64,000 bases of DNA, taken from positions 1-64,000 of the IMG/VR virus record IMGVR_UViG_3300028197_001695. One strand, written 5' to 3'. This document shows, piece by piece, positions 44,995-52,266 of the stretch. This DNA comes from a virus. Position 1 is the stretch's first letter, and the number at the start of each line of letters is the position of its first letter. The position numbers and the translations under genes are program-made. The notes below the pieces were generated by a model, which was not told the DNA's origin, did not search any database, and saw only the letters and a program-made list of their open reading frames with translations.

Positions 44995-45023
44995 TTTTAA
45001 TTGTCAGGCATCTGTGTTATACT
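44995..45023 (+). promoter_or_regulatory. Early promoter E1, leaderless
   Basis: TTTTAA (44995-45000), 17 bp, TATACT (45018-45023) with an extended -10 TG at 45015-45016. The -10 ends 6 nt before the ATG at 45030, so transcription should start at or next to the start codon. The earlier in-frame ATG at 45024 lies upstream of the expected RNA start. Confidence 0.7.
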
Positions 45024-45029
45024 ATGCCC

Positions 45030-45281
45030 ATGAAAGAAATTACCTCAATCACCACCAAGTCAGTCCAAGATCTAGAAATCAGTGATGATATGCATGACAC
45101 GGTTGAAATGGGATATATGGAAGCAGATAAGTGTTTCTACTACTGCGAATTCTCTCACAAAGGAAAGTCTTACGAGGGAGTCATTGAAGCAGTTAGGGTT
45201 TGGGACGAAGGTTCTGAATGCGCTTTCGTAGAATGGGAAGGCGATACCATTAATAACGTCGAAGAAATCGCTTGCGCTTAA
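45030..45281 (+). CDS. Small early protein, unknown
   Basis: 83 residues. Start 45030 is preferred to 45024 because the latter directly abuts the -10 box and would not be transcribed. The part YYCEFSHKGKSYEGVIEAV resembles the next protein (AFTYEGKEYTGAIQ), suggesting a duplicated small family. Acidic overall. No function recognised; typical of host-takeover genes expressed early. Confidence 0.7.
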   Translation: MKEITSITTKSVQDLEISDDMHDTVEMGYMEADKCFYYCEFSHKGKSYEGVIEAVRVWDEGSECAFVEWEGDTINNVEEIACA

Positions 45282-45300
45282 TTCTTTTTTCTAGTATACT
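45272..45300 (+). promoter_or_regulatory. Early promoter E2, leaderless
   Basis: TTGCGC (45272-45277), 17 bp, TATACT (45295-45300). The -10 ends 6 nt before the ATG at 45307. Confidence 0.75.
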
Positions 45301-45306
45301 ATGCTC

Positions 45307-45510
45307 ATGACAAAGATCACCTATGGCGAAGTTAAAGACTCAATAGAGTTTGGAGAAGTAGTTGAGCAAGATGGTTGCTGGGCTACTCACTTGGTAGCTT
45401 TCACCTATGAGGGTAAAGAATATACTGGTGCTATACAGTCAGACCCAGAACTGAACGGCAAAATCTATGATGACGAGGCTATCGAATACCCTGAAATTAA
45501 TTCAAAATAA
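45307..45510 (+). CDS. Small early protein, probable paralogue of the preceding gene
   Basis: 67 residues. The start at 45307 is chosen by the same promoter geometry as its neighbour; an in-frame ATG at 45301 directly follows the -10 box. AFTYEGKEYTGAI and DDEAIEYPEI align with EFSHKGKSYEGVI and the ending of the 45030 protein. No function recognised. Confidence 0.7.
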   Translation: MTKITYGEVKDSIEFGEVVEQDGCWATHLVAFTYEGKEYTGAIQSDPELNGKIYDDEAIEYPEINSK

Positions 45511-45523
45511 TAGCAAAGAAAGC

Positions 45524-45552
45524 TTGCACCACTCAGAAAAATAAAGTAAACT
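45524..45552 (+). promoter_or_regulatory. Early promoter E3, leaderless
   Basis: TTGCAC (45524-45529), 17 bp, TAAACT (45547-45552), then 6 nt to the ATG at 45559. Confidence 0.75.
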
Positions 45553-45558
45553 CCTCAC

Positions 45559-45885
45559 ATGACCGCGACACAAGAAGCACTAGCAGCAATGGCCAAAGCA
45601 GAGCAAGGCATGAATAGCATGATCGATGACATCGTTAAATCTTCAGAAACTTTCACGCAGGATTGCAAGGAGCAGAAGGAGAAACTTTCTGACGCTCCAG
45701 CCTTTGAGCAAGCGCAAGAGAGAGCGCATGAAAACTTTGAGAACTTCATGCAGGAGAGACAAGCAGGGAGAGACTTGGATTACGTAGTGTCGGAAGCCAT
45801 CTGGCTCCTTCAGAAGACTGACCCTTTCCTAGCCAAGCACCTAAACAAAGCTCTAGGAAAATACAGAAATAATCGCGTAAAGTAA
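45559..45885 (+). CDS. Small helical early protein, unknown
   Basis: 108 residues, charged and mostly helical: DDIVKSSETFTQDCKEQKEKL, ENFMQERQAGRDLDYVVSEAIWLLQ, ending with a basic tail. It has its own promoter and no Shine-Dalgarno sequence. Function unknown. Confidence 0.7.
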   Translation: MTATQEALAAMAKAEQGMNSMIDDIVKSSETFTQDCKEQKEKLSDAPAFEQAQERAHENFENFMQERQAGRDLDYVVSEAIWLLQKTDPFLAKHLNKALGKYRNNRVK

Positions 45886-45895
45886 CAAATAAAGC

Positions 45896-45924
45896 TTGTA
45901 GCCAACCCAAAAATAAAGTAAAAT
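45896..45924 (+). promoter_or_regulatory. Early promoter E4, nearly leaderless
   Basis: TTGTAG (45896-45901), 17 bp, TAAAAT (45919-45924), then 9 nt to the ATG at 45934. The spacing predicts about a 3-nt leader. Confidence 0.65.
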
Positions 45925-45933
45925 ACTCTCGTT

Positions 45934-46278
45934 ATGAAAAACACCACTACCACTACCACTACCCGCTTCGATCACGCCCTCTATGGCCTTGGAGAACAAG
46001 CATTAAAGCGCAAGCTTACCAATCGCGTTGTGACTTACCTCAATGAAGGCGAGTCTACAGTTAAGGCTGACGGGGAGCGTCAGTTAGTAATCCAAAAAGA
46101 TTTTGTGGATGGCTTTGCCAAAGGTACGGGTCGTCGCTACATCCAAGGATATGTTGCAGACCTCGACGATGGGGGTAAGATCAAGCCCCGCACCCTGCAC
46201 GTTGCAGGGATCAGCGAAGTGAAAGGTCGCTTGGCCACCGCTTGGGCCTTGGCCATGTCAGTCTATAAGAAAATCTAG
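45934..46278 (+). CDS. Early protein, unknown
   Basis: 114 residues with a threonine-rich start (a run of ACC/ACT codons), a basic middle and the segment GRRYIQGYVADLDDGG, followed by a hydrophobic helix at the end (LATAWALAMSVY). It has its own promoter and is followed by a strong terminator at 46300. No family recognised. Confidence 0.7.
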   Translation: MKNTTTTTTTRFDHALYGLGEQALKRKLTNRVVTYLNEGESTVKADGERQLVIQKDFVDGFAKGTGRRYIQGYVADLDDGGKIKPRTLHVAGISEVKGRLATAWALAMSVYKKI

Positions 46279-46299
46279 TTTCTGTGTGTGTGTTATTGG

Positions 46300-50869: not shown

Positions 50870-50940
50870 TCAAAGGAGAATTAGAAACAGCGATAGTGCT
50901 TATAATGACGATTCTCGCCCTAATATTCAAAAAAAGATAA
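50866..50940 (+). CDS. Tiny membrane peptide
   Basis: 24 residues: a short polar start, a hydrophobic segment AIVLIMTILALIF and a KKR end. It overlaps the preceding stop by 4 nt (ATGA) and is followed 1 nt later by the next gene. A single membrane span is predicted. Too short for family assignment. Confidence 0.5.
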   Translation: MIKGELETAIVLIMTILALIFKKR

Positions 50941-50941
50941 A

Positions 50942-51163
50942 ATGCAGCAAAAAAACATTACTTACAGTGGAATGCCCGACAAGGCATATCGGGAAATCGT
51001 AAAGCAAGCGACAGGCTCAGGCCATTGCAACGTTTACCCAAAGAGGTTATCAAACCAAGTAAGCGAAGCTTGCGATGATTTCTTTAAGTCGAGGAATATA
51101 AAATATGGTTCCTCTTGGTTTCATAAACAAGCAGATAGGAAACAAGAACAAGCAAAAAGATGA
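50942..51163 (+). CDS. Small basic protein, unknown
   Basis: 73 residues, basic, with KAYREIVKQATGSGHCNVYPKR and a charged C-terminal helix. It overlaps the next gene by 4 nt (ATGA). The mixture of basic residues and a possible H/C site suggests nucleic acid contact, which is speculative. Confidence 0.6.
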   Translation: MQQKNITYSGMPDKAYREIVKQATGSGHCNVYPKRLSNQVSEACDDFFKSRNIKYGSSWFHKQADRKQEQAKR

Positions 51164-51402
51164 ACCAAACACCAACAGTTAAATTGACAGGAGTATTCCC
51201 TAAAACATTTAGAGCAACTAAGTGTGAGACGGGGAGAGCAGATTGCAACTTTGAATATACTGACGAAAAGAAACAAGTTTTCTTTGAAGTGTGCTTACAT
51301 GGAGCGGTTTCACTGCATGAACATTTCACAGAGCTAGGTTATACAGAATTGGCCCCAAAATTAGAATTCCCAACTTGGCATCCTAACTACAAAAAAAGCT
51401 AA
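51160..51402 (+). CDS. Small protein, unknown
   Basis: 80 residues with TFRATKCETGRADCNFEYTDE, then VFFEVCLHGAVSLHEHFTELG. Beta-like with three cysteines. Coupled by ATGA to the gene before it. No family recognised. Confidence 0.6.
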   Translation: MNQTPTVKLTGVFPKTFRATKCETGRADCNFEYTDEKKQVFFEVCLHGAVSLHEHFTELGYTELAPKLEFPTWHPNYKKS

Positions 51403-51406
51403 AACT

Positions 51407-51589
51407 ATGACAATAGAGGTAGAAAGAAAAGAAGTTTACGGTAATACCCTAACTTATGTAAAAAAAGAATCTGTCAGGAATTCTATAAAGAAACTAACAG
51501 GAAGAAAAACTTTAACTCACTATGACATTGAGGCTCTAAAAGAGTTGGGCTTTATCTTAGTCATTGAACAAGTAACAGAAAGAATTTAA
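51407..51589 (+). CDS. Small basic protein, unknown
   Basis: 60 residues: TLTYVKKESVRNSIKKLTGRKTLTHYDIEALKELGFILVIEQ. It has a helix-strand layout and a basic first half. It follows the previous gene by 4 nt. No function recognised. Confidence 0.55.
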   Translation: MTIEVERKEVYGNTLTYVKKESVRNSIKKLTGRKTLTHYDIEALKELGFILVIEQVTERI

Positions 51590-51592
51590 ATT

Positions 51593-51883
51593 ATGATTAA
51601 AGAACACACAATGCCGTGCATCCACATGAATGGATCGGGCGAAGATAGTCTACGCAGACAATACAATGAATTGTTTTGCGCTGTAAGCGACGCTCAAGTC
51701 AAACTCCTTTATGATACAGACTTCCATGAGAGAGATTACTACCCTCTTGGGGATGAAGCTTGGGATAAAGCTTATCAAGAAAGAGAAGAAGTGAAGGAAG
51801 CCATGAACAAGGTTTACCAGTATGTCAAGCAGCATATGCACTTTCTCGACTATGGAAAGGAGCCGTTGCCAGATGAAAGTTAA
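51593..51883 (+). CDS. Small helical protein, unknown
   Basis: 96 residues, acidic with long helices (YNELFCAVSDAQVKLLYD; REEVKEAMNKVYQYVKQHMHF). An internal ATG at codon 6 is an alternative start. Last gene of the unit begun at 49790, directly before repeat C4. Confidence 0.6.
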   Translation: MIKEHTMPCIHMNGSGEDSLRRQYNELFCAVSDAQVKLLYDTDFHERDYYPLGDEAWDKAYQEREEVKEAMNKVYQYVKQHMHFLDYGKEPLPDES

Positions 51884-51890
51884 ATAAAAT

Positions 51891-51976
51891 GCTCCTAACT
51901 CGTTGACTATCAGCGAGTTAGAGGGCCGCGCCCCGCCGCGCCTCCTAAGTCCTTACTAATCAGTGGGTTACAGTGC
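51891..51976. repeat. GC-rich double-palindrome element, copy C4
   Basis: 86 bp: TAACTCGTTGACTATCAGCG half ending GAGTTA (perfect stem), a GC-rich centre, and a TAAGTCCTTACTAATCAGTG half ending GGGTTA. It closes the unit of genes 49790-51883. Confidence 0.87.
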
Positions 51977-52115
51977 TTTTTTTCAATCCCTTTCACTTGC
52001 TGATAATTAGTTAGTTGTGTAATCGGGTTTTGTTTATTTGTTGCTCACCAAAAAAACGGGCATCTGAGGCTTGCTTTTATTTGCTTATATTTGGAATAAA
52101 ATTCGACATCTTTGC

Positions 52116-52143
52116 TTGCTTTATTACTATACACTACTATAAT
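52116..52143 (+). promoter_or_regulatory. Early promoter E11, leaderless
   Basis: TTGCTT (52116-52121), 16 bp, TATAAT (52138-52143), then 6 nt to the ATG at 52150. Confidence 0.75.
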
Positions 52144-52149
52144 GAACAC

Positions 52150-52266
52150 ATGAGAGATCGAGAACGCGCTTTCTTTGAGAATGTAGTATTTACCTGCTTA
52201 GTTTTATTAAGTTGTATTATTTCAACCTTCGGGGTTTACAAATTTTTTGGTTTATTTGTTAACTGA
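52150..52266 (+). CDS. Small membrane protein
   Basis: 38 residues: charged start MRDRERAFFEN and one hydrophobic span VVFTCLVLLSCIISTFGVY. The start at 52150 rather than the upstream TTG-type frame is set by promoter E11. A terminator follows at 52287. Function unknown. Confidence 0.65.
   Translation: MRDRERAFFENVVFTCLVLLSCIISTFGVYKFFGLFVN

Follow-up and report, generated by a model that had tools for sequence, protein, structure and literature searches.

The window is the whole stretch of DNA that was analysed, bases 1-64000 of a 118,005-bp IMG/VR virus record, and the remaining part of the record was also analysed. The record is a tailed phage, with a terminase match and a weak portal match among its proteins, and it also encodes PhoH, a clamp-loader-like protein, ribonucleotide reductase, DNA polymerase III alpha, DnaB, primase, a RecA-like protein and ThyX. 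No close isolated phage relatives were found by DNA or portal, and TerL led to distant ones only. With terminase alone as the query there were matches to 143 related IMG/VR stretches, and two other queries added more; the family-wide counts given below are for 175 related loci and the record itself. The phage family is uncultured, widespread and environmental, and a marine habitat would be a guess. At both record ends (window 3887-4984, record 116495-117642) there are gene pairs whose upstream regions are nearly identical; they may be paralogues, or variant copies may overlap at their ends.

Our subject is a battery of plus-strand promoters, written here as -35 box, spacer in bp, -10 box and distance to the ATG. 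An earlier note had listed nine with the -10 box 6 nt before the ATG, and eight of these are as described. The first is TTTAAT-16-TATACT-6nt-ATG (44996-45032), with start codon at 45030, and the upstream ATG at 45024 is left out of the predicted mRNA. Similarly TTGCGC-17-TATACT-6nt-ATG (45272-45309) goes with a start at 45307 and leaves out the ATG at 45301. For both genes the note had let the geometry decide the start codon, and the homologues agree, as they lack the upstream ATG but have an ATG at spacing 6. The others are TTGCAC-17-TAAACT-6nt-ATG (45524-45561, start 45559, spacing 6 in 6/7 homologue upstreams), TTTAAT-16-TAAAAT-6nt-ATG (46629-46665, start 46663, 5/5 homologue upstreams, some with another promoter cassette), TTGCAC-17-TATACT-6nt-ATG (46959-46996, start 46994, kept in 7/8), TTGCAA-16-TATACT-6nt-ATG (47563-47599, start 47597, kept in 2/4), TTGCAT-17-TATACT-6nt-ATG (47970-48007, start 48005, kept in 8/9) and TTGCTT-16-TATAAT-6nt-ATG (52116-52152), which precedes a 38-aa ORF starting at 52150 and is kept in the two closest homologues and not in distant ones. 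The -35 boxes are at 16-17 bp as claimed, with the reservation that TTTAAT at 45030 and 46663 is poor. The ninth site, at 61561, has to be dropped, as the closest that it comes is GAAAAT at 7 nt; a search for homologues found none.

A second class, for which a distance of about 3 nt had been proposed, is also as described. TTGTAG-17-TAAAAT-9nt-ATG (45896-45936, plus strand, start 45934) and TTGTCT-16-CACAAT-9nt-ATG (49753-49792, plus strand, start 49790, with an extended -10 TGT) both have a predicted 3-nt leader GTT, and spacing 9 is present in 6/9 and 14/16 homologue upstreams respectively.

The pattern is thus real in the battery, but genes 47219 and 48726 do not follow it, being without such a promoter or leadered. 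The DUF932-like gene 48726 is the contrast case, with TTGCGC-17-TAGACT and a leader of about 49 nt (48642-48728, plus strand). Its leader (window 48677-48725) has a conserved 5' hairpin in which the stem sequence changes, followed by a ACTACTACT-like tract and no Shine-Dalgarno (SD) sequence. Leader and hairpin are also found in close relatives, and spacing 6 in the homologues from L065, L174 and L158.

Nor is the pattern confined to the battery, since it extends genome-wide. The minus strand of the window has TTGATA-17-TAGAAT-6nt-ATG (54379-54416, start 54381), TTGACC-16-TATTAT-6nt-ATG (60176-60212, start 60178) and TTGACT-16-TATTCT-6nt-ATG (61154-61190, start 61156, the clamp-loader-like protein), and beyond the window the same arrangement is present at at least four genes of the record, at 70605, 98399, 104590 and 110411.

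Four copies of a 111-nt intergenic repeat are present at window 46434-46544, 48333-48443, 49590-49700 and 51883-51993, each made up of a TAACTCGTTGA..GAGTTA hairpin, a GC-rich core and a second hairpin, and the repeat is also on related contig L189 at about 125-205. Many related contigs end near the start of the battery, about 4.4-4.9 kb upstream of terL (for example L002, L008, L013 and L014), which suggests that assembly is broken there by hypervariable or repeat-rich sequence, or that the genome ends there.

Position of the promoters in the record and in the family

Simple counting of consensus promoters was rejected as uninformative, as a plain TTGACA/TATAAT scan gave 20 sites against 14.5 +/- 4 in shuffles, which is barely more. 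It is the position of the promoters that is extraordinary and not their number. When an independent sigma70 weight matrix was run over the ORF starts of the record, there were 8 starts at spacing 6 with a score of 9 or more, and at most 2 at any other spacing. In the battery TAnnnT is present at spacing 6 in 8/17 gene starts, the local background rate further upstream being 0.024; this gives P = 1.9e-9 if the promoters are independent, which they are not fully, as there are paralogous cassette copies. Several battery promoters are paralogous, falling into repeat families D2-D4, and the pattern was therefore tested in the relatives.

In the family, after removal of near-duplicates, 117 starts with a good promoter are at spacing 6, as against about 4.7 for each position from 15 to 39. 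With starts picked by the -10 box alone there are 171 at spacing 6 and about 27 per position elsewhere, and 105 of these 171 have TTG(A/C) at 16, 17 or 18 bp (36, 67 and 2 respectively), the total for all other tested spacers being four. Even when the upstream regions were clustered leniently, spacing 6 retained at least 16 separate clusters, as against 1-2 at spacings 12-20. Under strict criteria the family has 461 distinct promoter matches. Of these, 102 lie exactly 6 nt from the start, 23 at 5 nt, 10 at 7 nt and 17 at 9 nt; for a further 160 there is no qualifying start in a range of 150 nt, a number that includes chance matches inside genes.

The spacing is also retained gene by gene. Spacing 6 is kept in 36/52 distinct homologue upstreams of spacing-6 genes and spacing 9 in 20/25 of those of the two spacing-9 genes, while four control genes have spacing 6 in 4/69 homologue upstreams. 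Promoters have been exchanged between unrelated genes with the distance constant, and the homologue of 46663 in L115 has the promoter type of 45559. It could be argued that these AT-rich signals have no function, or that they are translation enhancers resembling a -10 box, given the AT-rich upstream regions and a naive promoter count near that of shuffled sequence, but the sharp -35 spacing, the initiator and the conservation in homologues make this a very improbable explanation.

Predicted RNA start and translation

Initiation by RNA polymerase is normally some 7 nt downstream of the -10 box. For the spacing-6 class, position -1 is C in 76% and T in 17% (C/T 93%), whereas the base before the ATG for control promoters 15-39 nt away is C in 25% and T in 23% (C/T 48%). 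In the spacing-9 class there is a pyrimidine-purine step at -4/-3 (71% and 88%). The predicted +1 is thus seven nt past the -10 box in both classes, on the A of the ATG or three bases before it, and the initiator composition agrees with the predicted 5'-terminal AUG. As expected of leaderless sigma70 genes, the -10 box of the spacing-6 class falls in the range of 6-7 nt before the start codon and a -35 element is at 16-18 bp, weak in the two cases mentioned above. Leaderless transcription from these promoters, with RNA starting at or beside the start codon as the earlier note had it, is strongly supported by these sequence features, because of the 7-nt start rule, the -35 at 16-17 bp, the initiator in place and a geometry that relatives keep despite different upstream sequence.

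The genes concerned have no SD sequence, as expected of leaderless genes and as had been pointed out, but this is not special to them, as SD-like sequences precede only 7/141 genes of the phage, within the background of 2-9, with no excess anywhere in it. The coding ends are more informative. The frequency of CA/AC dinucleotides in the first 30 coding nt is 0.214 for spacing-6 genes, 0.138 for genes with distant promoters and 0.111 for promoterless genes, and ATGACA is the most frequent start among spacing-6 genes. The fold energy of the first 40 nt is -1.6 kcal/mol for spacing-6 genes as against -3.9 and -4.6 kcal/mol for the distant-promoter and promoterless genes. CA repeats that follow the start codon are known to enhance leaderless translation, and structure near it is known to be inhibitory (review PMC9031893).

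It had been suggested that leaderless mRNAs let the phage escape normal control of initiation. A version of this, in which they survive a takeover of translation initiation, has a precedent in the proposal for phiYS40 (PMC3594737), with IF2 up and IF3 down. We consider it unlikely here. SD is equally missing from leadered phage genes, which leaves a special escape unsupported, none of the proteins scanned (part of the proteome) was recognised as an initiation factor, and G1-C72 pairing in the phage tRNA-Met shows that it is not of the initiator type. Boosting of leaderless translation by a phage-encoded initiator tRNA was rejected on the same ground. The gene for this elongator-type tRNA-Met(CAT) is at window 57525-57600 (minus strand) and is also present in several relatives, some of which have tRNA-Leu(TAA) in addition.

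Host and known systems

The spacing could equally well be the host's own habit, to which the phage conforms, for example in an alphaproteobacterium or actinobacterium with many leaderless SD-less genes, and we put the chance of this at about even; leaderlessness would still hold and the novelty would be lower. The phage-wide lack of SD above background fits, as do the alphaproteobacterial phages among the closest NrdA hits and the alphaproteobacterial origin of the closest plasmid tRNA-Met, though these affinities do no more than hint at the host. On the other side, the share of leaderless spacing among strict near-gene promoters is far above 10-20%. WhiB is a common actinophage gene, and a search for it as an actinobacterial marker showed it to be absent from the phage. 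A small basic protein of 42 aa that is typical of Bacteroidota phages gave no match. The only genome hit for the phage is a contig in a Flavobacteriaceae MAG, which we rejected as evidence for the host as the bin mixes SD-using and SD-free contigs and has several phage contigs of the same family. No relatives were found in 199 other Flavobacteriaceae genomes, and weak short hits in Flavobacteriaceae genomes were not within CRISPR-like repeats.

Lambda cI is a phage gene whose mRNA begins at the AUG. It is treated as a leaderless mRNA (PMC9031893) and resembles our genes in this respect, but is a single repressor gene, whereas here there is a battery. The closest parallel is Thermus phage phiYS40, in which the same scan recovered the spacing-6 peak as a control, and in which the -10 boxes are also about 6 nt from start codons. 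However the phiYS40 transcripts reported to be mostly leaderless are middle/late (Sevostyanova 2007, cited in PMC3594737) and SD is visible in its other genes, while here the pattern is on host-type -35/-10 promoters and SD is not above background genome-wide. The peak is absent from what was scanned, in most cases part of the genome, of T4, Pelagibacter phage HTVC008M, mycobacteriophage D29, Cellulophaga phage phi14:2 and DSS3_MAL1; P23-45 gave no clear outcome. Actinobacteria and Deinococcus-Thermus have TA-led, -10-adjacent leaderless genes (PMC3160421, PMC12340547), which likewise have TAnnnT some 12 bp before the start codon and no SD, but those are cellular genes, and here we have a phage programme with promoter-ATG cassettes exchanged between unrelated genes.

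Promoter-ATG cassettes as the probable explanation

The explanation that we favour, with considerable confidence, is that host-type sigma70 promoters are fused to the ATG, giving leaderless mRNAs, in compact cassettes on short, presumably early genes. Host sigma70 RNA polymerase, with its sequence preference assumed, would read promoters placed to start the RNA on the A of the ATG or, for 45934 and 49790, 3 nt upstream of it. Ribosomes would then probably bind the 5'-terminal AUG directly, helped by CA-rich, weakly structured first codons, and promoter and ATG together would make up a compact cassette carried by short, swappable genes. Judging from the layout these genes are probably early, because the block to which they belong is divergent, lies opposite the structural genes and consists of short, variable genes that have host-type promoters and terminator-like hairpins.

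A different motif, TTAGTGTAAYA, is found before structural and other genes, at window 27519, 33876, 37198 and 39177 (minus strand) and in the rest of the record at 64373 (plus strand) and 65206, 92877 and 97653 (minus strand). It is a candidate phage-specific (late) promoter. If AGTGTAAYA is read as an extended -10 (TG-TAAYAT), it is 5-6 nt from the ATG in several genes and farther away in others.

Leaderless phage transcripts are already known. What is new is their setting in an uncultured widespread family, on host-type promoters, as cassettes with matching initiator and codon signatures, and such a layout as a general habit is rarely seen in phages. The broader proposition is that most strong host-type promoters near genes of this family are transferable promoter-ATG cassettes with co-adapted, CA-rich and weakly structured coding 5' ends, and that a large part of the early proteins would in this way be made by leaderless initiation in a phage outside Thermus; we put the odds of this at about even.

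The family offers a clear, testable case outside Thermus in which leaderless expression would be the rule for a phage gene set. It also corrects start-codon calls, as the longest-ORF rule fails at 45024 and 45301, and its many natural promoter-ATG cassettes, with matching initiator and CA-rich codons, are material for work on the selection of 5'-terminal AUGs by ribosomes. Finally, because promoter and translation start form one unit of about 40 bp, it suggests how phages may swap accessory genes with expression undisturbed.
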